Source: Deltaproteobacteria bacterium (GTDB lineage Bacteria > JAUYMQ01). Taken from it: DNA of 12,064 nt. The notes beneath the pieces are model-generated. The model had not been told where the DNA came from, ran no database searches, and saw nothing but the letters and a program-made list of their open reading frames with translations. Location of the stretch: the NCBI GenBank assembly GCA_030698575.1, contig JAUYMQ010000280.1, forward strand, positions 1 to 12,064, in the 5' to 3' direction. Shown here one piece after another: positions 1 through 12,064 of the stretch (positions within the stretch are counted from its first letter, which is position 1; every line of letters starts with the position of its first letter). The position numbers and the translations under genes are program-made.

Positions 1-95
1 GCGAAGATAACCACTGGAACGATCAGGGGAACGAGGTGGCCGGGGCTGCCATTGCCGAGTTCCTCCTGGCCCGGCAGCTCATTCGCTCGCCTCAT
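1..95 (-). CDS. Possible start of a further operon gene, truncated by window edge
   Basis: An open frame starts at an ATG at 95-93, overlaps the end of the acyltransferase gene by 17 bases and stays open to the left edge, giving 31 codons. The visible product begins MRRANELPGQ and ends in a hydrophobic stretch, LVPLIVPVVIF, that could be the start of a first membrane helix. The other two minus-strand frames hit stops or lack a start here. The ribosome site is poor: only AAGG directly against the ATG. The tight overlap matches the spacing of the rest of the operon, so a downstream gene starting here is plausible. No family can be recognised from so little, and the true start could lie beyond the edge. 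Confidence 0.35.
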   Translation of the reverse strand, partial: MRRANELPGQEELGNGSPGHLVPLIVPVVIF

Positions 96-762
96 CCTTG
101 AGGGGGCCCAGGGACACCCACTTCCCGAGTTTCTCGTCGTACCGGCGGACTGGTCGGGCGGGGTTTCCCACGACCACCGTGAAGGGCGCGACCTCGCCGC
201 GGACGACCGCATTCGCGCCGACCACGACGTGCCGGCCCAGAGTGGCGCCGGCCAGGATGGCAGCCCCGTCTCCGATCCAGCAGGAATCGCCGATAACCAC
301 GGGGCGCGGGACCGTCAGCGGCTGGTCCCGCGGCGCGGTGGTCGTGTCCTCGAATCCGTGGTCGTGATCGGCGATGAGAATCCGCTCGCCCATGAGCACC
401 CTCACTCCGATCTCGATGCGGCCCTTGGCGGTGATGTGGCAGTAGCGTCCGATCTGGGTCCCGTCGCCGATGCGGAGCACAGGCTGCTGCGGCGGCGCCA
501 CGCTGCCCAGCGCGGCCGCGTACATCGCCGTCGCCTGAAGCAGGCAGCCGGACCGCACGTGCGTGCCCGTGCCGAAGTGGATGTTCTCGGCTCCCTCGAT
601 GTCGCACCAGGGCGAAATGGAGCTTCCCCGCCCGAAGGATCCAAGATCCTTGGCGGAGTAGAGCGTGTACAACGCGGTGAAGATCCGCCGGAGCAGGGCG
701 GGCAGTCCCGACCGATCGATCGCCTGGCCGATCCGGAAAGCGATTCGTCGCCCCCTGCTCAC
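79..762 (-). CDS. Left-handed beta-helix (hexapeptide-repeat) acyltransferase, WbbJ/WcaF/maltose O-acetyltransferase-like
   Basis: The 227-residue product resembles the LbH O-acetyltransferases that move acetyl from acetyl-CoA to sugar hydroxyls in surface polysaccharides. Imperfect hexapeptide repeats run from about residue 55 to 200 (for example IGDGTQIGRYCHI and IGDSCWIGDGAAI). The loop ADHDHGF (131-137) carries the likely catalytic histidine (H133 or H135), and the typical exit VVGNPARPVRR lies near 197-207. A basic N-terminal part of about 45 residues precedes the helix. There is no PglD-like Rossmann domain before the repeats, which argues for an O-acyltransferase rather than a sugar-nucleotide N-acetyltransferase. 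The start is GTG at 762, in a GTGA overlap with the upstream stop, with GGAGG six bases before it. It could O-acetylate the nonulosonate or the polymer; replacing the missing PseH is possible but less likely. The acceptor cannot be read from sequence. Confidence 0.85.
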   Translation of the reverse strand: MSRGRRIAFRIGQAIDRSGLPALLRRIFTALYTLYSAKDLGSFGRGSSISPWCDIEGAENIHFGTGTHVRSGCLLQATAMYAAALGSVAPPQQPVLRIGDGTQIGRYCHITAKGRIEIGVRVLMGERILIADHDHGFEDTTTAPRDQPLTVPRPVVIGDSCWIGDGAAILAGATLGRHVVVGANAVVRGEVAPFTVVVGNPARPVRRYDEKLGKWVSLGPLKDEASE

Positions 763-2228
763 CGGGCACCTCCCGCCGCCAGCGTCTTTATCAGCTCGCG
801 GACGCGTTCGCCGCTCTTTCCGTCGGCGGCGAAGAGATTGTCACTGATGAATCGCGCGCGCAGCTCGCGGCGCTCGGTCCCGATCTCTCCCGGGTCAAGT
901 TCGCGCCGCAAGGCCGCGACCAGCTCCGCCGCGCTTCTGGCGCTCACCGCCGCGCCTTCCCGGGCGTAGGGGAGGGGGTTTTCCTCGCCGAAGGCCTCGA
1001 GGCTCACCACCGGCCGCTCGAGCATCATCGCCTCGAGCCCCACGCTCGAGTGAAACGTGAGAACGGCGTCGGCGGCTGCCAGGAGATCGTACAGATCGAC
1101 CTCCCCGTGCCGGACGACCGCGGCGTTGTCACTCCAGGCGATGAGCGCCCGGTAGGGCGCCGCGTCCTCGGACGGATGGAGCTTCACGATCAGCACCGCC
1201 TGTTCTCCCCAGGACCGCAGCCCGTCCCGCGCGACGCCGACCATCGCCGCGTTGCGGGCGAAGGTGATCGGGTTCGTGGCCAGCACTATCCAGCGGGCCG
1301 CGGGATTTATGCGAAGCTGCGTCGCGATCGTTTCACGCGGAATCGGCTTCCGGTTCACGATCGCGTCGAGTCGCGGCGCGCCGGTCACCTCGATCTTCTC
1401 GGCCGGCACGCCCCGGGCCTGGAGCCAGCGCGCGCTCGCGTCGCCCCAGGCGGCGAATTTCGTCGAAACGACCGGCGTGTAGCCCATGTCTCCCACCATC
1501 ATGCCGTGCTGGAGCGTGAGCGATGGGATGCCGCGCCGGTTCGCCTCCAGTGTTGCACACCTTCCCCAGAAGCTCGTGTCGGAGGCCGTGACGAGCATCG
1601 TCGCGGGATGGGCGTCGAAAAGCCGGTGAAGCCCCAGGCTGGCGGCGGCCGTGCGGATCGCGGCTCGCATGAGCCAGGCGCGGAACGAATGCCTCTGAAA
1701 GACCCGGTGGGCTCCCTGGCGCCTCGCGCGCCGCTGGGCTCGCCAGATGGCCTTCCCTGCGCCGCGGAGGGACGCGCCCTCGGTCCTCGGCAGGAAATCC
1801 CGGATGTCGATCCAGGAGTGCCCCGTCTTCCCCGACAGGGTCTCGGGGTAGGGCGTAGCCGCCCTTGCTTCCGCGGAGTCGAATTGCTCGAGGACGTGCC
1901 TGAGCGTCTCGCGGGTCGAAGGGTTCGCTCCCTCGAAGAGGAAGAGCAGCCTCGGGTCCTCCGGAACGGGGGGCGGTGGCTCGGGGCGGCTCCCGCCCAG
2001 CCGATATCGAAGGTAGACCGCGTGCCCCACGAGCGTCTGCCAGGCCCGTTCCGCCAGGCGCGGCGAGGCGAAAGCCTGTTCCGTCTGAAGGGCCACGTAT
2101 ACGCTTAGCCGGTTGGTCCCGGCCAGATCGTCTCCCTCGATCTCTATCCCCCCGAAGATCGTCTCGAACTGGTCGACCGCGCGGTCGAGCTCCCCGAGCA
2201 CATCGTCGGGACGGCTGCCGTCGGTCAT
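759..2228 (-). CDS. GT-B-like surface carbohydrate transferase; candidate nonulosonate glycosyltransferase
   Basis: This 489-residue protein has no signal peptide or clear membrane segment and is best described as a GT-B-fold capsule-biosynthesis-like protein. The N-terminal 200 residues are poorly conserved and basic near 163-183. The C-terminal half holds the readable motifs: ASDTSFWG (215-222), LTLQHGMMVGD (237-247), VTGAPRLDAI (281-290), VKLHPSED (348-355) and LTFHSSVGLEAMM (390-402). HP at 351-352 followed by HSS at 393-395 recalls the HP and serine motifs of bacterial sialyltransferase and capsule polymerase families (GT38, GT52, GT80). CDP-glycerol glycerophosphotransferase-like proteins share a similar C-terminal arrangement, so assignment by motif alone is not decisive. 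Its ATG overlaps the pseG stop as ATGA. Placement after the CMP-sugar genes makes a CMP-nonulosonate transferase the most natural role, by inference. Confidence 0.65.
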   Translation of the reverse strand: MTDGSRPDDVLGELDRAVDQFETIFGGIEIEGDDLAGTNRLSVYVALQTEQAFASPRLAERAWQTLVGHAVYLRYRLGGSRPEPPPPVPEDPRLLFLFEGANPSTRETLRHVLEQFDSAEARAATPYPETLSGKTGHSWIDIRDFLPRTEGASLRGAGKAIWRAQRRARRQGAHRVFQRHSFRAWLMRAAIRTAAASLGLHRLFDAHPATMLVTASDTSFWGRCATLEANRRGIPSLTLQHGMMVGDMGYTPVVSTKFAAWGDASARWLQARGVPAEKIEVTGAPRLDAIVNRKPIPRETIATQLRINPAARWIVLATNPITFARNAAMVGVARDGLRSWGEQAVLIVKLHPSEDAAPYRALIAWSDNAAVVRHGEVDLYDLLAAADAVLTFHSSVGLEAMMLERPVVSLEAFGEENPLPYAREGAAVSARSAAELVAALRRELDPGEIGTERRELRARFISDNLFAADGKSGERVRELIKTLAAGGAR

Positions 2229-3289
2229 GCGGAGGCTCTCCCATGCGTCCCCGCCATGCGGGCGGCCGCCGCGTCGAGAACCCGTTCCCTTCCCCGGCCG
2301 TCGAACAGCGCCATGCCCTGATCGGCCATTGCGCGGCGGCGTTCGCCGTCCGCGAGGAGCGCGCCGAGTGCGCCGGCGACATCCGCCCCGTCGGGCGCCC
2401 CGAGGCAGAGGGCCACGCCCGCTCTGTCCAGCGCCTCGGCCGCGTCCTTCTGCGTCTCCGAGAGCACGAGCAGCAGCGCCGGCACGCCGAGGCGCGCCAT
2501 CTCGTAGGCGGTCGAGCCGCCCGCCGAGATCGCGAGATCAGCCGTGGCGAATACCTCGGCTGTCTCCGGCAAATCCACTTTGATCCCCACCTTGTGGGAC
2601 GACCCCCGCGCCGCTTCTTCGAGCGACTCGAGATGGCCGTAGGCGCCGCCGACGACGATTGTCACGCGCAGCGCCGGCGTGATTCCCTCGAGGCTCCGAA
2701 GAACCTGCTCGGTTACGTTCGCCGGATCGCCGGCCCCCAGCGAGACAACGACGTGTTCCGCGCGATCGGGTTGCGTCCGCCGCTGGAGGTCGGGACGGAG
2801 GAAGGCGTCGCGAAAGAAGAAGTAATCCGGGCCAAGAAGAAGCTGTGTGTCGCGCGAAACCCTGTAGGCGAGGCGCTCGGCGCCCAGGTTCCCGTTCACG
2901 ACGATATGGGAGGCGTAGGTGATGCGGGGCAGATCGTTCAGGCTCATCACGAGCGGCCCCGCGTCGCGCGCGCCGCTGATCCAGGAGGTGTCGAGGCTGT
3001 TGTGGTCGGTCACCAGCATTGCCTCCGAGAGCGGTTGCCCCTCCTGGCGGCGCTTCATCGCCTCGAGCGTCGCCATGAGATCGGCGGCGCTCCCGGACCC
3101 GTCCGGCAGCAGCGAAACGTCCTCGCCCAGGGCGTCGAGCTTCGCCCTCCCCGAGCCGTCGCCCGCGTGGGTCAGGAAGCGGGGCCGGAGGCCGCGCCGC
3201 CTGGCCTCCTGGGCGAGCGCGTGGCAGCGCGTGAGATGCCCGAATCCGATTTCGGCGCCACCATCCGCCCTGATGTAGAGGTTCGTCAC
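2225..3289 (-). CDS. pseG: UDP-2,4-diacetamido-2,4,6-trideoxy-beta-L-altropyranose hydrolase (PseG type)
   Basis: PseG removes UDP from the pathway intermediate to release the free six-carbon sugar that PseI then uses; it is a cytosolic GT-B-fold enzyme related to MurG. The N terminus has the family signature IRADGGAEIGFGHLTRC (residues 6-22), with the expected catalytic histidine at H18. Other hallmarks are VTDHNSLD (93-100), LLGPDYFFFRDAF (151-163), SLGAGDPAN (183-191), SAGGSTAYEMARLGVP (255-270) and SETQKDAAEAL (277-287). Length is 354 residues with the GTG start at 3289. The longer ATG frame from 3361 would overlap the upstream gene by 47 bases and add a 24-residue basic tail unlike the family, while the GTG has GGGGAG 11 bases upstream. 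Asn97 replaces the tyrosine of the usual DHY motif, possibly altering the substrate pocket. It overlaps the next gene by ATGA. Confidence 0.88.
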   Translation of the reverse strand: MTNLYIRADGGAEIGFGHLTRCHALAQEARRRGLRPRFLTHAGDGSGRAKLDALGEDVSLLPDGSGSAADLMATLEAMKRRQEGQPLSEAMLVTDHNSLDTSWISGARDAGPLVMSLNDLPRITYASHIVVNGNLGAERLAYRVSRDTQLLLGPDYFFFRDAFLRPDLQRRTQPDRAEHVVVSLGAGDPANVTEQVLRSLEGITPALRVTIVVGGAYGHLESLEEAARGSSHKVGIKVDLPETAEVFATADLAISAGGSTAYEMARLGVPALLLVLSETQKDAAEALDRAGVALCLGAPDGADVAGALGALLADGERRRAMADQGMALFDGRGRERVLDAAAARMAGTHGRASA

Positions 3290-3314
3290 GATCAGCGCGT
3301 CTCCCCGCCGGGGT

Positions 3315-4124
3315 TCACCGGCCTTCCGTCCGCTTTCCCCTGGCCGCCAGAACGCGCGCATCCAGCTCCTGGGCGTAGAGATTTCCCCGCTTCTGCTGCA
3401 CCCCGGCGTTCAGCGCCACGATCTCGGGATGAGCTTCCAGGAAGCGCAGCGCCTCGCGCAGGACCACCGGCTTCCCTTCACGGTAGAGCGCTTCGTAGAT
3501 CGCCTTCAGCACCTCGTAGTCGGCGGGTTCGTCGAGGGTGAGGCGGAACTCGGGCCGGTAAAGCGATGCGTCCATGCCGCCGCCCGCGTCGCCGCCCACG
3601 CCAAATGCTTCGATGTGGAACTCCTCGGGGTGCTCCTTGATCGGGACCGTGATCAACTCGCCCTGGTAACGCGTGTGGACCAGCTCGAGGGCCCGGCGGC
3701 TGATGACTTCCACGAGCACGCCGACGGAGAGGACCGCGGGTACGTACGTGAAGTCGGCCCCCGTGGCGCGGTGGTGGGCGATCATCCGGGAAGCGAGGGG
3801 CATGTCGAACAGCGGGCAGTCAGCAGTCACCCGGACGACACTTTCGGCGCCGGATTTTCGGGCGATGGTCACGTGCCGTTCGAGCACGTCCTCGGGGTCG
3901 CCGGCGTAGGCCTCGATGCCGAGCGACCGGGCCAGCGCGACGAGCGGGACGTTGTTCTCCTCACTCGACGTGCCGAGCCAGACGGCGTCGATGCCGTCGA
4001 CGTGGCGCAGCCGCTCCACCATGTGGGCGGTGACCGGCTTCCCGGCGAGATCCATCATGACCTTGCCGGGAAGGCGCTCCGATCCCATGCGGGCTGTGAT
4101 CACGGCGACGAGGGGCCCGGCCAT
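3315..4124 (-). CDS. SpsF-type cytidylyltransferase, probable CMP-nonulosonate synthetase
   Basis: The 269-residue product belongs to the SpsF-type nucleotidyltransferases (COG1861 group), a GT-A-like Rossmann fold. The nucleotide-binding loop is ITARMGSERLPGKVM (residues 9-23), followed by LGTSSEENNVPL (50-61), the acidic metal-site motif VVRVTADCPLFD (about 96-107) and RLTLDEPADYEVL near 197. It should join CMP from CTP to the nine-carbon sugar before transfer. The standard PseF/NeuA enzymes start with a different loop (PARGGSKRIPRKN-like), so this is a functional analogue rather than a textbook PseF. In Bacillus sps operons SpsF accompanies the NeuB-like SpsE, as here. The ATG at 4124 directly abuts the TAG of the preceding gene, with GGAGG 11 bases upstream. 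The exact sugar is not determined by the sequence. Confidence 0.8.
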   Translation of the reverse strand: MAGPLVAVITARMGSERLPGKVMMDLAGKPVTAHMVERLRHVDGIDAVWLGTSSEENNVPLVALARSLGIEAYAGDPEDVLERHVTIARKSGAESVVRVTADCPLFDMPLASRMIAHHRATGADFTYVPAVLSVGVLVEVISRRALELVHTRYQGELITVPIKEHPEEFHIEAFGVGGDAGGGMDASLYRPEFRLTLDEPADYEVLKAIYEALYREGKPVVLREALRFLEAHPEIVALNAGVQQKRGNLYAQELDARVLAARGKRTEGR

Positions 4125-5135
4125 CTAGGCGAGATCCTCCGGTCCAATGGGTTCGTTTCGGTGAACGGCGCGGCGGAGGCGCTTTCCGAGCAGTCGCTCG
4201 GCCTCCAGGGGGCCTATGCCGAGCGGGACACGGCGCTTGAAGTCCACGTGCTCCAGCGTGAGCAGTGTCCCTTCGGCGAGATCCTCGCGCGCCACCAGCG
4301 TCTTGCGCGTGCTTTCGCGCCAGGCGAGTTCTTTCGCCGTGGGCCTGCGGATCGCCTCGCCGAGCGAGACCTCGGCGTTGCGGATGTCCTCGACCATCTT
4401 CTTGAACTCGCCGGGCTCCAGGGCCGACACCCAGTCGTATCGCTTGGCCGCGCGGTCGGTGGTGAAATGTTTCTCGATGGCCATGGACCCGGCGCCCACG
4501 CTCGCCAGCGCCGCTACACTGTCCGTCGTGTGGTCATTGAAACCCACGGGGCGGTCGAAGATCTCCTGGTAGCTCCGGATCACGCGCAGATGCATGTCGG
4601 CGTAGTGGGAGGGGTGATCCTGGAAGCCGTGGAGCAGCACGATCTGATCGTTGCCCGCCGCGGTGATGCGCTCGATCGCGAACTCGATTTCGCCGAGCGT
4701 CGTCATGCCCGTGTGCAGGAGCAACGGGACGCCGGTCCGGGCTGCATGCTCGAGCAGGTAGGGGTTCACCAGGTCGCCGGCGTGGAGCCGGAAAAAAGGG
4801 GTTCCGATGGCGACCTGCAGGTCGACGCTCGGAGGGTCGAGCACGTCAACGCAGAACGAGATGCCGTTGTCCGAGGCGCAGAATCGGAGATCCTTCCACT
4901 CCTGCTTGGTGAAGCGCAGCTTCTGGTAGACCCCGTACCACTCGTAATCCGGGACAGCGAAGGCGTCGGCGTCCATGCACTGGAACTTCACGGCGTCCGC
5001 ACCGGTGGCCGCCGCGGCACGCACCATCTCCATGGCGATGGCGTGATCGCCGGCGTGGTTGTTGGCCCCCTCGGCGATGATGTAAACGGGCTCGCCGGGG
5101 CCGACGCGCTTTCCGTCCAGCACAACGGGCTTCAC
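4125..5135 (-). CDS. Divergent NeuB/SpsE-family protein with altered PEP site
   Basis: The 336-residue protein has a NeuB-type TIM barrel (about 15-265) followed by a SAF/antifreeze-like domain (about 277-336). Classical members condense PEP with a six-carbon sugar to make a nonulosonate. Retained features are IIAEGANNHAG (19-29), DAVKFQ (47-52) and the metal-binding histidines H202 in GFNDHT and H223 in EKHFT. Compared with the PseI next door, several positions are changed: the TPFD threonine is Asp97, the YKI lysine is Arg116, the following serine is Ala119, the STGM serine is His141, and the HC..SYP motif reads HGFQDHP (169-175). The GPDH segment reads KRYDW (231-235), keeping the aspartate. 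Activity or substrate may therefore differ. The GTG start at 5135 has GAGGAG eight bases upstream. It follows pseI after a 42-base gap and abuts the cytidylyltransferase. Confidence 0.85.
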   Translation of the reverse strand: MKPVVLDGKRVGPGEPVYIIAEGANNHAGDHAIAMEMVRAAAATGADAVKFQCMDADAFAVPDYEWYGVYQKLRFTKQEWKDLRFCASDNGISFCVDVLDPPSVDLQVAIGTPFFRLHAGDLVNPYLLEHAARTGVPLLLHTGMTTLGEIEFAIERITAAGNDQIVLLHGFQDHPSHYADMHLRVIRSYQEIFDRPVGFNDHTTDSVAALASVGAGSMAIEKHFTTDRAAKRYDWVSALEPGEFKKMVEDIRNAEVSLGEAIRRPTAKELAWRESTRKTLVAREDLAEGTLLTLEHVDFKRRVPLGIGPLEAERLLGKRLRRAVHRNEPIGPEDLA

Positions 5136-5162
5136 TTGGCGCTCTCCTCTCCTGCGCTGGCC

Positions 5163-5177
5163 GGGCGCGCGGCGCCC
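5163..5177 (-). repeat. GC hairpin between the two synthase genes
   Basis: Directly after the pseI stop codon, in the widest gap inside the operon (42 bases), the minus strand reads GGGCGC-CGC-GCGCCC: a perfect six-base-pair all-GC stem with a three-base loop. No run of T follows, so it is not a convincing intrinsic terminator. It could stabilise or set a processing point for the upstream mRNA segment, or be chance in GC-rich DNA. Confidence 0.45.
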
Positions 5178-6233
5178 TCAGGCGATCTTGTCCCAGGTGA
5201 GCGGATCCTGGGACCGGATGTCCACCGCCGCGCGCCTGCCGACAACCCGATCGAGGAAGCGCGGCTCGAGGCCCGTCCCGGGCCGGAGGATGGCCAGCAT
5301 GTCCTCGCGGATGAGGGCGCCGGCGGGAATGTCCGTGGCGGCGAAGATCGAGCGCCGACCCATCACGAAGCTCCCCTCCTCGGAGGGGAGCCGGTGCTTC
5401 ACGGGACTCCCGAGCGCTTCCTCGCACTCGCGGACGCCCTGCACCAGCGCCTTGAGCTCGTCCGGCTCGATGGAGAAGGGGTGATCGGGCCCCGGCATGT
5501 CCCGGCCCAGCGTGAAGTGTTTTTCGATCATGTTTCCGCCGAGGGCGGCGGTCACCACGGCGGCGGTGATTCCGTTCGAGTGATCGCTGTAGCCCACCGG
5601 GACGCCGAAGGCGCGCTTCATCGCCGGGATGGCGCGCAGGTTCAGCTCCGTGAACGCGGCCGGGTAGCTTGCGGCGCAGTGAAACAGGGCGACCTCCTTG
5701 CAACCCCCGGCTTCGGCTGCCTCGAGCGCCGGCTCGATGTCAGCCAGGTTCGCCATCCCCGTCGAGATGAGAAGGGGTTTTCCGGTGGCCGCCGCATGAC
5801 GGATGAGCGGAAGGTGCCACAACTCGTAGGAGGCGATCTTGTAGGCCGCCAGATCGAGCTTCTCGAGATCGTCCACCGCCTCCTCGTCGAAGGGCGTGCA
5901 GAGGAAGATGAGCCCTTTCTCCTCGCTGTAGGCCTTGAGATCCCCCAGCCATTCCGCGGGGAGCTCCATCTGCTTGTAGACCTCGTGCATGCTCCCTGAC
6001 TCGGGGAACATCTTCTCGATATAGGGGTGCTTTTCGCGCATGCGCGCGACGATCTTGTCCGCGGTGAAAGCCTGGAACTTGACCGCGTCGGCGCTTGCCG
6101 CGGCGGCGGCGTCGATGAGGCCCAGGGCCGTCTTCATGTCGCGGTTGTGGTTCGACGACGCCTCGGCGATGACGAAGAAGGGATGGCCGTCGCCAATCGT
6201 CCTGGGGCCCGCCTTTACTTCGGGACGGAGCAA
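5178..6233 (-). CDS. pseI: Pseudaminic acid synthase (PseI type)
   Basis: PseI condenses PEP with 2,4-diacetamido-2,4,6-trideoxy-L-altrose to form pseudaminic acid. The barrel shows FFVIAEASSNHN (residues 19-30), DAVKFQAF (49-56), FLCTPFD (110-116), AYKIAS (130-135), LLISTGMA (154-161), FHCAASYPA (184-192), GYSDHSNG (214-221) and EKHFTLGRDMPGPDHPFS (237-254). H218 and H239 are the expected metal ligands. A SAF domain closes the protein (about 292-351, with LRPGTGLEPRFLD). The start chosen is TTG at 6233, giving 351 residues, close to known PseI lengths. AGGAGG lies nine bases upstream, and the TTG comes four bases after the carbamoyltransferase stop. An ATG at 6350 would add 39 Ser/Arg-rich residues lying inside the carbamoyltransferase gene. 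All usual active-site positions look intact, so this is the likelier working synthase of the pair. Confidence 0.9.
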   Translation of the reverse strand: MLRPEVKAGPRTIGDGHPFFVIAEASSNHNRDMKTALGLIDAAAAASADAVKFQAFTADKIVARMREKHPYIEKMFPESGSMHEVYKQMELPAEWLGDLKAYSEEKGLIFLCTPFDEEAVDDLEKLDLAAYKIASYELWHLPLIRHAAATGKPLLISTGMANLADIEPALEAAEAGGCKEVALFHCAASYPAAFTELNLRAIPAMKRAFGVPVGYSDHSNGITAAVVTAALGGNMIEKHFTLGRDMPGPDHPFSIEPDELKALVQGVRECEEALGSPVKHRLPSEEGSFVMGRRSIFAATDIPAGALIREDMLAILRPGTGLEPRFLDRVVGRRAAVDIRSQDPLTWDKIA

Positions 6234-6237
6234 GGGC

Positions 6238-7935
6238 CTAGCCCTCCTCTCCGACGAGCCAGTTGCCGATCGCCAGGCAGTCGACGTTTTCCTTCTGGAA
6301 GGACTGCACGGCGTCCTCGGGGGAACAGACGATCGGCTCCTCGTGGTCATTGAAGGAGGTGTTGATGATGGCGGAACGGCCCGTCTTCTGATGGAAGGCC
6401 TTGATGAGATCGTGATACTCGGGGTTCTGCTCGCGAGGGACCACCTGCGGCCGCGCCGTGCCGTCGACGTGAACGGTGGCAGGGGCGCTTTCCTTGAACT
6501 CAGGCGTGCAGTCGTAGCAGATCGTCATGAAGTGGCTGGCGATGTGATCCGGCCGCCAACCCACGAAGCTCCGCGCCGCCAGCGCGGGGATCGTGGCCGG
6601 CGCGAAGGGCATGAACTCGGTGCGGTGGAGCCGCTTGTTGAGCCAGTCGTTGACGGTTTTATCGGCCGGGTGGACGAGGATGCTGCGCGCGCCCCGCGCG
6701 CGCGGACCCCACTCCATCCGCCCCTGGAACCAGCCGACGACCTTTCCCCGGGCGAGGAGATCCGCCGTTTCGGCCACCTTGTCCCTGAAGGGACGGTAGG
6801 TGAGGTTGTAGGCGTCGAGAACCTTCTTGATCTCCTCGTCGCTGAAAGACGGACCGAGATAGACGTCCGCGATGGGGCGCTGGATCCGGTTGCCCGTCTC
6901 GGACAGAAAGTTGAGCGTGGCGCCGACCGAGAGCCCGCCGTCGCCCATGTTCGGATAGACGAACACGTTGTCGACGCCCTCGAGGGCGAGAATTCGCTGG
7001 TTGAGTTTCACGTTTCCGAAGAGCCCGCCGGCGAGACAGATGTTCTCGACGGGCGCGCCCGCGTCCGCCTGCTCCTTCAGGAATCGCCGGATGTAGGCGA
7101 GCATCACGTCCTCGAGGTGCTGCTGGCAGGCGGCGGCGATGTCCTCCTTCGAGAACCCGGAAAGCGCCTCCTTGAGCGCGGGAGGCGGGTCGGTGAAGAA
7201 GGGCTTGTACATCCGGCCGATCTTCGCGTAGATGTTCCCGTCCGTGAAATCGATCATCTCCCGCATCACATGGATGGCTTTCGACGGGTCGCCGTAGGCC
7301 GCGAGCCCGGTGACCTTCCCCTCGTGACGGACGGGGCGCATGCCGAGGATGAAGGTGATCGTCGAGTAGTAGAAGCCGAGGCTGTCGAAACTCGACCGCC
7401 AGTCCAGCTCGGTGATCTTCTCCCCCTCGCCGAGGTGCACCGTCGCGCTCCGGAAATCCCCCCGCGCGTCGGCGGTGAAGCAGAGCGCCCGGTCGAAGGG
7501 GCTCGTTAGAAACGCCGTGGCCGCGTGAGAGAGGTGGTGATCGTAGACGCGGAGTTTCGAGGTCCACCCCTGTTCGGCGGCCACGCGCGCCATCTCGTCC
7601 TTGCGTACCTGATCGCGCTCCAACTCCACCCGCACCCTGGTTTCGACCAGTTCCGCGCAGTCCGGTTGTTCCTGCACGGCGCGGATCATGCGCTTGCTCA
7701 ACGGGCCGAGGAGTTTGTGCTCGTCGAACTCGCGCCCCCAGCCGTAGGCCACCGCGTCGACCTCCGAGGCCTTCAGGCCGCCCATCGAAAGGACGTACTC
7801 GATGGCCCGCCAGGGGAAGGCGTCGTCCTGCTTTCTGCGGCTGAATCGCTCCTCGTTGGCGGCCGCCACGGTTTTTCCGTCGATGGTGAGCGAGGCGCCG
7901 CTTTCGAAGGCGTTCGAGAGGCCGAGCACGATCAT
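6238..7935 (-). CDS. O-/N-carbamoyltransferase, NodU/CmcH/TobZ family
   Basis: These enzymes make carbamoyl-adenylate from carbamoyl phosphate and ATP and pass the carbamoyl group to a sugar or antibiotic hydroxyl. The 565-residue product starts MIVLGLSNAF, as family members do. It keeps VYDHHLSHAATAF (130-142), with probable metal ligands H133 and H137, then HEGKVTGLAAYGD (204-216), AGGLFGNVKLN (302-312) and NMGDGGLSVGA (329-339, candidate metal aspartate D332). EWGPRARGARSIL (408-420) and INTSFNDHEEPIV (524-536) follow in the C-terminal domain. The usual form of the former is FGPRALGNRSIL, so Arg414 and Ala416 are departures. ATG at 7935 is preferred: AAGGA is six bases upstream and it overlaps the methyltransferase stop as ATGA. 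An ATG at 7941 would add two residues but has no spacing for the ribosome site. The likely acceptor is a pathway sugar or finished nonulosonate, by context only. Confidence 0.9.
   Translation of the reverse strand: MIVLGLSNAFESGASLTIDGKTVAAANEERFSRRKQDDAFPWRAIEYVLSMGGLKASEVDAVAYGWGREFDEHKLLGPLSKRMIRAVQEQPDCAELVETRVRVELERDQVRKDEMARVAAEQGWTSKLRVYDHHLSHAATAFLTSPFDRALCFTADARGDFRSATVHLGEGEKITELDWRSSFDSLGFYYSTITFILGMRPVRHEGKVTGLAAYGDPSKAIHVMREMIDFTDGNIYAKIGRMYKPFFTDPPPALKEALSGFSKEDIAAACQQHLEDVMLAYIRRFLKEQADAGAPVENICLAGGLFGNVKLNQRILALEGVDNVFVYPNMGDGGLSVGATLNFLSETGNRIQRPIADVYLGPSFSDEEIKKVLDAYNLTYRPFRDKVAETADLLARGKVVGWFQGRMEWGPRARGARSILVHPADKTVNDWLNKRLHRTEFMPFAPATIPALAARSFVGWRPDHIASHFMTICYDCTPEFKESAPATVHVDGTARPQVVPREQNPEYHDLIKAFHQKTGRSAIINTSFNDHEEPIVCSPEDAVQSFQKENVDCLAIGNWLVGEEG
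6243..6248 (-). promoter_or_regulatory. Ribosome binding site deciding the TTG start of pseI
   Basis: The minus strand carries a full AGGAGG nine bases before TTG at 6233, overlapping the last codons of the carbamoyltransferase gene. Its strength and spacing favour the TTG over the upstream in-frame ATG at 6350. Confidence 0.7.
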
Positions 7936-8621
7936 GGACATTCCTTCGTCACGAGTGCGATGAGACGTTCGCGCCGGTTCTCGTCGTCCAGGCGGACATC
8001 CCCGGGCAAGAGACCCATCCGCAGTAGCCGCTCTTCGAGGACCGGCAGGTCGCCGAAGGTGACGGCCGAGCGGACGGTAAAGCCGGCGGCGGCCAGGGTG
8101 GCCGTGAGATCGTCGAGATCATAGTAGCGCAACACTGTCGTATCGCGCCGGTAGGGAATGAGGCCTTTCTCGTTGAAGACACGATAGACCTCGATGTATC
8201 GCCTGTTGGGCGTGGTCACGACCATGGCGCCTCCCGCGGCCAGAACGCGGGAGGCTTCGGCAAGAACCTGGTCCGGTTCGGCAACGTGGCCGATCGCGTG
8301 GGTGATCACCAGCCCTTCGAAAACGCCGTCGCGGAACGCCAGGTGGTGAGCGTCCAGATTCATGAAGCCCCCGCCCACCTCGCGCAGCGCAATCTGGATT
8401 CCCTTCGGTGAGTAATCGGCGCCGAAGGCGGCGTAGCCGGCTTCGCGCAGCGCGGCGACGTTCAGCCCCGGCCCGCAGGCCAGATCCAGCACGCGGCCCC
8501 GCACGCCCGCCTCCTGCAGCAGCCGGATGACCTCGCGGATCTCCGACCGTCCCTTCTCCGAGACGTTGAAGGGCATGATTCGGCCGGTGTAGTAGTCCTC
8601 GTCCGGAATCTCGAGCCTCAT
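7932..8621 (-). CDS. Class I SAM-dependent methyltransferase
   Basis: The 229-residue protein is a Rossmann-fold methyltransferase of the UbiE/UbiG-like (Methyltransf_11/25) type. Motif I is VLDLACGPGLN (44-54), the acidic end of strand beta-2 is GADYSPKGI, and the later motifs read LVITHAIGHVAEPDQVLAEASRVL (not all shown in sequence order of contacts) and GGAMVVTTPNRR. No membrane segment or extra domain is seen. Its ATG at 8621 overlaps the pseC stop as ATGA, and its own TGA overlaps the carbamoyltransferase start as ATGA, so translation of the three is probably coupled. Methylation of a hydroxyl or amino group on the pathway sugar is the reasonable inference from position; the family acts on many small molecules and the sequence does not name the acceptor. 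Confidence 0.82.
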   Translation of the reverse strand: MRLEIPDEDYYTGRIMPFNVSEKGRSEIREVIRLLQEAGVRGRVLDLACGPGLNVAALREAGYAAFGADYSPKGIQIALREVGGGFMNLDAHHLAFRDGVFEGLVITHAIGHVAEPDQVLAEASRVLAAGGAMVVTTPNRRYIEVYRVFNEKGLIPYRRDTTVLRYYDLDDLTATLAAAGFTVRSAVTFGDLPVLEERLLRMGLLPGDVRLDDENRRERLIALVTKECP

Positions 8622-9799
8622 GCCCGCGCCTCTTCCACGACCTCGCCGACGATGGCGATGACGTCCTCGACGTCCGTGTCGTTCATTCGCGGGAAGAGCG
8701 GGAGCGAGATCTCGGCCGCGTAGTAGGCCTCCGCACGGGGGAACTCCCCCGGCGCATGCCCGAAGTGCTTCCGGTAATAGGGGTGGAGCGGGATGGGAAT
8801 GTAGTGAACCTGCACGCCGAGCCCGCGCTCCCGGAGCGCCTTGAAGATCGCCCCGCGCGAGGAACTGAGCCGATCCAATCGGAGCCTCAGCGGGAAGATG
8901 TGCCAGGCCGGCTCGGCGCCGGGCCTCGAGGCCGGGACAGTGAGCGCGTCGCTCTTGTTGAAGGCCTCCCGGTAGCGATCAACGATGGCGCGGCGCCGCG
9001 CCACGAACGCATCCAGCTTGCGAAGCTGGCTGAGCCCGAGCGCGCACTGAAGATCGGTGATCCGGTAGTTGTATCCCAGCTCGATCATTTCGTAGTACCA
9101 GGGCCCCCGCTCGATGTCGCCGTGGAGGAATTCTCCCGCCTCGCGCGTGATGCCGTGGGTGCGGAAGAGCCGGAGACGGTGCGCCAGCGCTTCGTCGTCC
9201 GTGGTGACGGCGCCGCCTTCACCGGTGGTGATGGTTTTCACGGGGTGGAACGAGAAGGTCGTAAGATCGGCCAGCGCGCCCACCGGCCGCCCCCCAAGGC
9301 GTGCCCCGAGCGAATGGGCGGCGTCTTCGATGATGAGGATGCCGCGCTCGCGGGCGATCTCGCGCAGCGCCTCGAGATCAGCGGGGTGGCCGGCGTAATC
9401 GACGGGGAGCAACGCCCGGGTGCGCGGCGAAAGTGCCCGGCGCGCGGCTTCGGGATCCAGGTTTCCGGTGTCGGCGCTGACGTCGGCGAAGACCGGCCGC
9501 CCTCCCTGATAGAGGACGGCGTTCGCGCCGGCGACGAAGGAGAGGGGACTTGTCACGACCTCGGCGCCGGGACCGACGCCGGCGGCGTAAACCGCTCCGT
9601 GAAGGGCCGCGGTTCCGCTCGAGAAGGCCACCGCGAAGCGCGCGCCGACCGCGCGACAAAGATTGTTTTCGAAAAGATCGATAGCCGGGCCCTGGGTTAT
9701 CCAGTCCCCGCGGAGGATCTCGAGAACGCTCTGGACGTCCTCTTCGTCGAGCCACTGCCGCCCGTAGGGGAGGGGAGAGCTGCTGCGATCCCTGGGCAT
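8618..9799 (-). CDS. pseC: UDP-4-amino-4,6-dideoxy-N-acetyl-beta-L-altrosamine transaminase (PseC type)
   Basis: PseC is a cytosolic PLP enzyme of the DegT/DnrJ/EryC1 family that aminates C4 of the PseB product using glutamate. The 393-residue sequence begins its family block with PYGRQWLDEEDV (11-22) and GDWITQGP (31-38). SSGTAALH (60-67) contacts the cofactor phosphate. EDAAHSLGA (158-166) supplies D159 for the pyridine nitrogen. SFHPVKTITTGEGG (183-196) holds the Schiff-base lysine K188. GYNYRITDLQCALG follows near 248 and VHYIPIPLHPYYRK near 332, both typical of PseC. The ATG at 9799 comes one base after the pseB stop, with GAAGGG just upstream. Related aminotransferases for other 4-amino sugars exist; the adjoining PseB-type dehydratase favours the altrosamine pathway. 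Confidence 0.92.
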   Translation of the reverse strand: MPRDRSSSPLPYGRQWLDEEDVQSVLEILRGDWITQGPAIDLFENNLCRAVGARFAVAFSSGTAALHGAVYAAGVGPGAEVVTSPLSFVAGANAVLYQGGRPVFADVSADTGNLDPEAARRALSPRTRALLPVDYAGHPADLEALREIARERGILIIEDAAHSLGARLGGRPVGALADLTTFSFHPVKTITTGEGGAVTTDDEALAHRLRLFRTHGITREAGEFLHGDIERGPWYYEMIELGYNYRITDLQCALGLSQLRKLDAFVARRRAIVDRYREAFNKSDALTVPASRPGAEPAWHIFPLRLRLDRLSSSRGAIFKALRERGLGVQVHYIPIPLHPYYRKHFGHAPGEFPRAEAYYAAEISLPLFPRMNDTDVEDVIAIVGEVVEEARA

Positions 9800-9800
9800 G

Positions 9801-10778
9801 TCACCCTTCGCCTATCATGCGGCGGAGCTCCTCGACGGTGAGCCACTGTGTGTTGTTGTCGCTCGAATAGCGGAATCCGTCGGGCAGGGTCTTGCCTCCC
9901 TCCCACTTCTCTCGTTTCCACCAGGGGTGCTCGGGCTCGATCACGAAGAATTTGTCGAAGCGGAGCGCGTGGCGGGCCTCGTCCTCGGTGACCATGACCT
10001 CATGCAGTTTTTCGCCGGGGCGAATCCCGATCTCCTTGATCTCGCAGTCGGGCGCCATGGCGCGGGCCAGGTCGGTGACCTTCATGCTGGGGATCACGGG
10101 GATGAAGATCTCGCCGCCGTGAAGGAGATCGACGGCATCGAGCACGAGCTGCACGGCCTCGTCGAGGGTGATCCAGAAGCGCGTCATGCGGGGATCGGTG
10201 ATGGTCAGCACGCCCGAGGGGCGCTGCTCGCGGAAGAGCGGAATGACAGAGCCCCGGCTCCCGACGACGTTGCCGTACCGCACGCAACTCAGCCGGGTGT
10301 TTCGCCCGCCGGTGTAGGCGTTCCCCTGGATGACTATCTTCTCGGCGCAGAGCTTGGTCGCCCCGTAGAGGTTCACGGGGTTCACGGCCTTGTCCGTGGA
10401 GAGAGCAACGACCCGCTCCACCCCGCAGTCGATGGCGGCGTCGATGAGGTTCTGGGCCCCGAGAATGTTCGTCTTGACGGCCTCGAAGGGGTTGTACTCG
10501 CAGGCGGGGATCTGCTTCAGGGCCGCCGCGTGCACCACCACATCGACCCCCTGCATGGCCCGGTAGACCCGCTCGCGGTCGCGGACGTCGCCGAGCAGGA
10601 AGCGGAGGCGGGGGTCCTGGATCTCCGAGCGCATCTCGCTCTGCTTCAACTCGTCCCGCGACAAGACGCGAAGGGCCCTGAAATCGTGATCCCGGACCAG
10701 CCGGCAGGTGAAGGCACGGCCGAAGGAACCCGTGCCGCCCGTGAGGAGAATGACCTTGTCCTTGAAACGCGTCTGCAC
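9801..10778 (-). CDS. pseB: UDP-N-acetylglucosamine 4,6-dehydratase (C5-inverting, PseB/FlaA1 type)
   Basis: First pathway enzyme: an NADP-dependent short-chain dehydrogenase that converts UDP-GlcNAc to UDP-2-acetamido-2,6-dideoxy-beta-L-arabino-hexos-4-ulose. With the GTG start the product is 325 residues, near the length of H. pylori FlaA1. The nucleotide loop is LLTGGTGSFG (11-20). SRDELKQSEM (40-49) and HAAALKQIPACE (83-94) are PseB hallmarks, and LSTDKAVNPVNLYGATK (126-142) holds D129, K130, Y138 and K142 of the active site. GTG at 10778 has AGGGGG five bases upstream. An in-frame ATG at 10841 lies within the predicted -35 element and would add 21 unrelated residues, so it is rejected. 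It heads the operon and is followed one base later by pseC. Confidence 0.93.
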   Translation of the reverse strand: MQTRFKDKVILLTGGTGSFGRAFTCRLVRDHDFRALRVLSRDELKQSEMRSEIQDPRLRFLLGDVRDRERVYRAMQGVDVVVHAAALKQIPACEYNPFEAVKTNILGAQNLIDAAIDCGVERVVALSTDKAVNPVNLYGATKLCAEKIVIQGNAYTGGRNTRLSCVRYGNVVGSRGSVIPLFREQRPSGVLTITDPRMTRFWITLDEAVQLVLDAVDLLHGGEIFIPVIPSMKVTDLARAMAPDCEIKEIGIRPGEKLHEVMVTEDEARHALRFDKFFVIEPEHPWWKREKWEGGKTLPDGFRYSSDNNTQWLTVEELRRMIGEG

Positions 10779-11076: not shown

Positions 11077-12064
11077 ATGAAGCGCAAGCGCAGCGGGTTC
11101 CGGGTGCTCATCGCCTTCGGCACCCGGCCGGAAGCCATCAAGCTGGCGCCCGTGGTCGCCGCCCTGAAGGCGGCCTCGCCGCGAATTGAAACCCGCGTAG
11201 TCGTCACGGCGCAGCACCGCGAGATGCTCGACCAGGTTCTCTCCCTCCACGGCATTGTCCCCGATCATGATCTCGACGTCATGCGACCCCGCCAGACACT
11301 CACGCAGATCACCCACCGCGCGCTCGAGCGTGTCGGCCGACTTCTCGATGACGATCCGCCGGATCTCGTCCTCGTTCAGGGCGACACGACCACCAGTTTC
11401 ACCGTTGCGCTCGCGGCCTTCTACCGGCGCGTCGCGGTGGGTCACGTCGAAGCGGGCCTCCGCACCTACGACAAGTTCCAGCCCTTTCCGGAGGAGATGA
11501 ACCGCGTCCTCACCTCGCACCTCGCCGACTGGCACTACGCGCCCACACGCCGAGCGCGGGAGGCGCTGCTCCGCGAGGGAATCCCCGCCTCGCGCGTTCT
11601 CGTCACGGGGAACACCGTCATTGACGCCGTGCTCGCGGTCGCCGCGAAGCCGCTCTCCCGATCGCCGGTTCCAGGCTGGCGTCCCGCGCCGGACCGCCGT
11701 CTGATCCTGGTCACTGCGCACCGACGCGAGAACCTGGGCGAGCCGCTGCGCGAGATCTGCGGCGCCATTCTCGATCTGGTGGATCGTTACGAGGATGTCG
11801 AGGTCATCTACCCGCTGCACCTGAACCCGGCGGTGCGGGAGGTGGTGCGCCCGCTTCTCGGGCGAAAGGAGCGCGTGCGCCTCGTCCCTCCACTCGACTA
11901 CCACCCGTTCGTGTCGCTCATGGCGCACTCGACGCTCATTCTCACCGACTCCGGCGGAATTCAGGAAGAGGCCCCCTCGCTCGGAAAGCCCGTGCTGGTT
12001 CTCCGCCACGTGACGGAGCGGCCCGAGGCGGTGGAGGCGGGCACGGTGAAGGTGGTCGGGCCCG
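11077..12064 (+). CDS. wecB: UDP-N-acetylglucosamine 2-epimerase, non-hydrolysing (WecB/MnaA type), 3' end outside window
   Basis: WecB interconverts UDP-GlcNAc and UDP-ManNAc in the cytosol, feeding ManNAc-containing surface polymers. The frame starts at ATG 11077 (AAAGGCGG just upstream) and is still open at the edge after 329 codons; family members run about 370-380, so roughly 45 residues are missing. Hallmarks are IAFGTRPEAIKLAP (12-25), VVVTAQHREMLDQ, LVQGDTTTSF (99-108, catalytic-type D103), VGHVEAGLRT (121-130, E125), FPEEMNR (137-143, E139), VTAHRREN (212-219, H215) and LTDSGGIQEEAPSLGKPVL (289-307). The GTRPEAIK start distinguishes it from the hydrolysing NeuC. It diverges from the nonulosonate operon. 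UDP-ManNAc is not an intermediate of the PseB-C-G-I route, so it probably serves another sugar of the same glycan. Confidence 0.93.
   Translation, partial: MKRKRSGFRVLIAFGTRPEAIKLAPVVAALKAASPRIETRVVVTAQHREMLDQVLSLHGIVPDHDLDVMRPRQTLTQITHRALERVGRLLDDDPPDLVLVQGDTTTSFTVALAAFYRRVAVGHVEAGLRTYDKFQPFPEEMNRVLTSHLADWHYAPTRRAREALLREGIPASRVLVTGNTVIDAVLAVAAKPLSRSPVPGWRPAPDRRLILVTAHRRENLGEPLREICGAILDLVDRYEDVEVIYPLHLNPAVREVVRPLLGRKERVRLVPPLDYHPFVSLMAHSTLILTDSGGIQEEAPSLGKPVLVLRHVTERPEAVEAGTVKVVGP

Follow-up and report, generated by a model that had tools for sequence, protein, structure and literature searches.

Gene content and layout of the operon

Nonulosonates cap many bacterial surface glycans. The question raised here is which of them would be made by a gene cluster that joins a pathway for pseudaminic acid (Pse) to a methyltransferase, a carbamoyltransferase, and a second, divergent synthase termed NeuB2. 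The cluster lies on contig JAUYMQ010000280.1 of a Deltaproteobacteria bacterium, a 12,064-base contig that was analyzed as a whole (the window). Ten open reading frames (ORFs) run on the minus strand from position 10778 to position 79 as one compact operon with short gaps or overlaps, in the order pseB, pseC, methyltransferase, carbamoyltransferase, synthase 1, NeuB2, SpsF/KdsB-type cytidylyltransferase, pseG, GT-B-like protein, and hexapeptide acyltransferase (Table 1). With slightly better than even confidence, we propose that this operon makes a CMP-activated pseudaminic-type nonulosonate, further decorated with methyl and/or carbamoyl groups, and that NeuB2 has been re-purposed. Judging from gene order, the most likely product is a surface glycan-bound pseudaminate that carries an O-carbamoyl group, an O-methyl group, or both.

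The original prediction, made from the nucleotide sequence of the window, had placed pseB, pseC, a pseI-type gene, pseG, and a CMP-transferase gene in one compact operon, with a methyltransferase and a NodU/TobZ-type carbamoyltransferase between pseC and the synthase. All of these genes were recovered there with curated and Pfam models. The second NeuB-family gene, which we judge to be the odder part, had been overlooked. ATGA coupling of the two modification genes to their neighbors held except before synthase 1. An ATGA overlap joins pseC to the methyltransferase and, if translation starts at the second Met (7935), the methyltransferase to the carbamoyltransferase (from the first Met, the overlap is 10 nt). 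The carbamoyltransferase and synthase 1 are separated by 4 nt between a TAG stop and a TTG start, with AGGAGG upstream. At the pseB/pseC junction, TGA and ATG are 1 nt apart, and the TAG of NeuB2 is directly followed by the ATG of the cytidylyltransferase. Third-position GC was 0.82-0.90 across the ten ORFs, which therefore look coding. Mis-binning of the contig was judged unlikely; its tetranucleotide composition agreed with that of three further contigs from this assembly (r 0.97-0.98).

The Pse backbone

Genes were named with NCBI curated models, each applied with its own cut-off, and with Pfam. PseB (TIGR03589, 490.5 bits, cut-off 407.75), PseC (TIGR03588, 471.3 bits, cut-off 423.5), and PseG (TIGR03590, 178.9 bits, cut-off 153.55) all scored above threshold. 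Synthase 1 fell narrowly under the cut-off of the PseI model TIGR03586 (336.8 versus 340.25 bits) and under that of the NeuB_NnaB model TIGR03569 (350.0 versus 399.65 bits). It matched the SpsE structure 1vli at 4.1e-70, its catalytic positions were intact wherever they were compared, and in a tree it fell into a set of six rows (SH-aLRT 95) with the synthases of loci L142-L145 and L112. L144 holds pseB, pseC, spsF, pseG, and neuB together; by the same search, pseC was undetected in L142 (pseB, spsF, pseG, neuB), and pseC and spsF were undetected in L143 (pseB, pseG, neuB). The cytidylyltransferase matched PF02348 (7.4e-18) and reached 24.2 bits with the PseF model, far from the cut-off of 205.7. 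An SpsF-like domain instead of NeuA has been seen in a Vibrio Pse cluster (PMC7371886). Because loci of the L144 type carry the same backbone, a Pse pathway with an SpsF-type activating enzyme is of an already existing kind. No relative of synthase 1 or NeuB2 was found in the viral contigs searched.

Set beside the canonical PseB-PseC-PseH-PseG-PseI-PseF pathway, the operon is thus alike in PseB, PseC, PseG, and a PseI/SpsE-type synthase, but it has an SpsF/KdsB-type enzyme in place of PseF, lacks PseH, and adds a methyltransferase, a carbamoyltransferase, and a second NeuB. Neither the curated nor the Pfam models detected a PseH-type GNAT among the ten ORFs. Outside the operon, the highest PseH score in the genome was 75.3 bits, under the cut-off of 93.1, and the family also matches most control genomes.

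By homology, PseB and PseC would convert UDP-GlcNAc to UDP-4-amino-4,6-dideoxy-AltNAc, PseG would remove UDP, synthase 1 would condense the free sugar with phosphoenolpyruvate (PEP), and the SpsF-type enzyme would activate the nonulosonate with CTP. For acylation, the hexapeptide acyltransferase might serve, or an enzyme whose gene lies outside the operon. Pse has O4 and O8 to offer for modification, and the methyltransferase and carbamoyltransferase would modify free hydroxyls of the nonulosonate, so that an O-methyl group, an O-carbamoyl group, or both would be added to Pse. The GT-B-like protein might then transfer the decorated sugar from its CMP-activated form to a surface polysaccharide or a glycoprotein other than flagellin.

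Methyltransferase and carbamoyltransferase

The methyltransferase was recognized by PF13489 (1.6e-19). The carbamoyltransferase carries both domains of its family, Carbam_trans_N (PF02543, 1.9e-40) and Carbam_trans_C (PF16861, 1.2e-59), aligns over its full length to the structures of TobZ and GdmN, and keeps the HHxxHAA, DxRGD, and GDGGxSxGA motifs. By this domain pair and the metal motifs, the ORF is assigned to the NodU/TobZ carbamoyltransferase family. In a quick tree it paired with the L123 sequence (96) inside a group of 20-21 rows that was separate from TobZ, from the two other full-length copies of the same genome, and from the L032 and L091 sequences.

The position of these two enzymes suggests what they may act on. 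Both genes sit between pseC and synthase 1, their junctions overlap or span 4 nt, and their composition is coding-like; this was counted in favor of a decorated Pse. The original prediction of a carbamoylated or methylated nonulosonate accordingly stands in its first part, a pseudaminate-type operon, for which the curated models and the backbone shared with other loci speak; that the modifications fall on the nonulosonate is suggested by gene order. Several observations weigh against such a modification. It is solely gene order that assigns substrates to the methyltransferase and carbamoyltransferase. Among the sequences compared, the clade of the carbamoyltransferase contained no characterized member, and the relatives sampled adjoin genes for radical S-adenosylmethionine (SAM) proteins, sugar epimerases, WecG, MreBC, and patatin rather than Pse genes. 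Since the closest relatives are not beside nonulosonate genes, the family gives no information on the substrate. In addition, this assembly alone represented its phylum in the comparison, and the lineage is barely sampled.

The linkage itself was surveyed by comparing, by eye, where carbamoyltransferase homologues and synthase homologues lie in 386 genomes plus 39 of another phylum. No second case of a carbamoyltransferase within 10 kb of a NeuB was present among the matches listed, about 150 per list in the larger sample; where both homologues shared a contig in that set, the distance between them was at least tens of kilobases. Without a second genome carrying a close pair, there is no conserved linkage to back a joint function, and this also counts against the proposal. 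A looser and independent case, counted in favor of the proposal, was seen in a Nealsonbacteria locus (L032:9992-20589), which holds a carbamoyltransferase, a methyltransferase, a GDSL gene, pseB, pseC, a HisF-type gene, a GNAT gene, and neuB. It was rejected as the same operon, as the carbamoyltransferase of L032 falls in a different clade and its gene does not stand in among the pse genes. The triad of GDSL, methyltransferase, and carbamoyltransferase genes found in L032 also occurs on contig 351 of the present genome (L105, 1982-6223), so a methyltransferase paired with a carbamoyltransferase is a recurrent arrangement in this gene family.

The same evidence bears on another reading, which we consider unlikely: the operon may simply gather the genes for one surface glycan, with the two modifying enzymes acting on a sugar of that glycan other than the nonulosonate. 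The varied contexts of the carbamoyltransferase relatives, some of them glycan-related though not nonulosonate loci, would agree with it. So would the neighbors of the other copies in this genome, namely a sugar transferase (C569), a MurJ-type flippase plus a glycosyltransferase (C388), and a methyltransferase plus a GDSL gene (C351). The known carbamoyl group of a surface glycan, moreover, is on the core heptose of lipopolysaccharide (LPS), where it is placed by WapO of Pseudomonas (PMC8005017). Against this reading, both genes lie inside the biosynthetic part of the operon, from pseC to the synthase, as a block that overlaps pseC instead of standing among the downstream transferases.

It is very improbable, in our estimation, that the carbamoyltransferase takes the place of PseH by N-carbamoylating the 4-amino group that PseC introduces, with a ureido-nonulosonate as the result. 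Such a role would suit the missing PseH, the sub-threshold PseH score in the rest of the genome, and the place of the gene after pseC and the methyltransferase. However, the relatives with solved structures are the O-carbamoyltransferase TobZ and antibiotic carbamoyltransferases, and the hexapeptide acyltransferase at the operon end could perform the N-acylation.

The divergent second synthase NeuB2

NeuB2 matched PF03102 (3.7e-53) and carries a SAF domain and thus combines the TIM barrel with SAF. It is 31% identical to synthase 1 and at most 36-38% identical to any full-length homologue seen. An AlphaFold2 model showed the NeuB fold (predicted local distance difference test (pLDDT) 77), with 1vli, 1xuu, and 8h2c (NeuB/SpsE/PseI) as the best Foldseek matches. 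Because the alignment behind this model had four sequences only, its side-chain geometry was left unused.

Residues were compared over 49 sequences with 24 near-invariant columns and are given in NmeNeuB numbering. NeuB2 deviated at six of the 24 columns, more than any other sequence (next highest, three). The changes were K129R, S132A, S154H, Y186H, S213N, and A225S; five of these lie in or next to the active site, and several belong to the PEP site. With Asp at position 110, none of the PEP-side residues T/S110, K129, S132, S154, and S213 was conserved in NeuB2 (D110, R129, A132, H154, N213). Positions 110, 129, 131, and 132 surround PEP in an area described as conserved across the Neu, Leg, and Pse enzymes (PMC7371886), and Thr110, Lys129, Tyr186, and Ser213 are among the residues contacting ligand (PMC6795526). 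NeuB2 also lacks ~20 residues in the loop after the Lys53 strand in comparison with synthase 1. It retains the metal ligands His215 and His236, Arg314, which in the known enzyme enters the other monomer, and the equivalents of Glu25, Lys53, Gln55, Glu234, and Asp247.

A pseudogene was rejected; the frame of 336 amino acids is intact and its third-position GC is 0.87. The pattern of change and retention fits a re-purposed paralogue or a partner subunit better than decay. As a retained paralogue, NeuB2 may either pair with synthase 1 in the domain-swapped dimer without being catalytic itself or be a synthase with altered substrates. Alternatively, NeuB2 may be a normal synthase that evolves fast and uses PEP to make a second nonulosonate, so that the operon feeds two products, although we find this doubtful. 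The fold and the retained residues just listed would agree with that role, and changes of Lys to Arg and Ser to Asn can be conservative. Against it stand the unmatched number of altered near-invariant columns, their location at or beside the active site, the conservation of the PEP surroundings across Neu, Leg, and Pse enzymes, and the single cytidylyltransferase gene for two products. We give low credence to a combined proposal in which a carbamoylated pseudaminate is the product of the operon and NeuB2 works without standard PEP condensation, as a non-catalytic heterodimer partner of synthase 1 or with a non-PEP donor. If it were true, the product might be a new class of acidic sugar.

Other loci with NeuB-family genes were noted. 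On a plasmid of Azospirillum thermophilum (L116, 780-13038), a single nonulosonate cluster contains two of them together with genes for LegB, LegC, a surface carbohydrate biosynthesis protein, and a methyltransferase. In a subgroup formed by L162, L163, L170, and L116:834-1625, Gly replaces Asp214, and in L162, L163, and L170 the position of Arg314 is occupied by Gly or Cys.

Comparison with known systems

Two parts of the locus are known already, the Pse backbone with an SpsF-type enzyme and methyltransferases in Pse loci. L144, partly L142 and L143, and the Vibrio B9-25K2 cluster (PMC7371886) resemble the operon in an SpsF-type activation domain and a Pse-type synthase beside pseB, pseC, and pseG. 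No carbamoyltransferase was found alongside in L142-L144, however, and none is mentioned for Vibrio B9-25K2 (PMC7371886). Pse clusters of Clostridium butyricum carry methyltransferases among the genes for CMP-Pse biosynthesis (PMC13317340), a likeness to the present operon, but no carbamoyltransferase is mentioned for them and they serve flagellin. The methyl part of the predicted product is consequently not new. For the carbamoyl group, no relevant paper joining nonulosonates or pseudaminic acid with carbamoyltransferases was found among the open-licence papers searched, and a NeuB2-type protein was not found described in the same literature. The operon probably makes a decorated sugar of a kind that could not be found described there. 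TobZ and GdmN share the domain pair and motifs of the operon's carbamoyltransferase, which nevertheless falls in a clade apart from TobZ. WapO offers a precedent for carbamoyl groups on surface sugars, likened here by function and not by sequence.

Carbamoylated Pse, if real, would add a decoration for which no description was found. A NeuB paralogue whose PEP side has been rebuilt would probe the limits to which the synthase fold can be re-purposed. Both points are directly testable, because solubility is predicted for the enzymes and the pathway can be reconstituted.

The operon end and the glycan acceptor

The GT-B-like protein reached 66.5 bits with TIGR04396 and 66.4 bits with NF046086 (BFO_1060 family glycosyltransferase), both under cut-off, and matched PF04464 (8.4e-11). 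A sequence search for a relative with a solved structure found none, and its AlphaFold2 model (pLDDT 42.7) was too poor and was not used. A Glyphos_transf protein adjoins nonulosonate genes in L091. The hexapeptide acyltransferase scored 97.4 bits with NF007240, under the cut-off of 243, and matched PF00132; it is a possible stand-in for PseH or a possible O-acetyltransferase. No flagellin N-domain was matched in the assembly (4.13 Mb in 653 pieces, 91.6% complete), and flagellin is therefore an unlikely acceptor, as far as an incomplete assembly can tell.

Table 1. Predicted genes of the operon and the evidence for their names
Gene or product	Position	Strand	Evidence and remarks
pseB, UDP-GlcNAc 4,6-dehydratase (inverting)	9801..10778	minus	GTG start 10778; TIGR03589, PF02719
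pseC, pyridoxal phosphate-dependent aminotransferase	8618..9799	minus	TIGR03588
Class I SAM-dependent methyltransferase	7932..8621	minus	PF13489, PF08241; ATGA overlap with pseC
NodU/TobZ-family carbamoyltransferase (Kae1-like and YrdC-like halves)	6238..7941	minus	likely start at second Met, 7935; PF02543, PF16861
Synthase 1, PseI/SpsE-type NeuB	5178..6233	minus	TTG start; TIGR03586, TIGR03569, SpsE 1vli, tree
NeuB2 (synthase 2), divergent NeuB-SAF protein with changed PEP side	4125..5135	minus	PF03102, PF08666 (SAF)
SpsF/KdsB-type cytidylyltransferase, in PseF's place	3315..4124	minus	PF02348; KdsB/cytidylyltransferase structures
pseG, UDP-6-deoxy-AltdiNAc hydrolase	2225..3289	minus	TIGR03590; likely GTG start 3289
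Surface carbohydrate biosynthesis/GT-B-like protein, possible nonulosonate glycosyltransferase	759..2228	minus	TIGR04396, NF046086, PF04464
Left-handed beta-helix (hexapeptide) acyltransferase, WbbJ-like	79..762	minus	NF007240, PF00132

Upstream of the operon, a divergent ORF on the plus strand (11077-12063), cut by the contig end, was named by eye as a putative WecB-type UDP-GlcNAc 2-epimerase-like protein.

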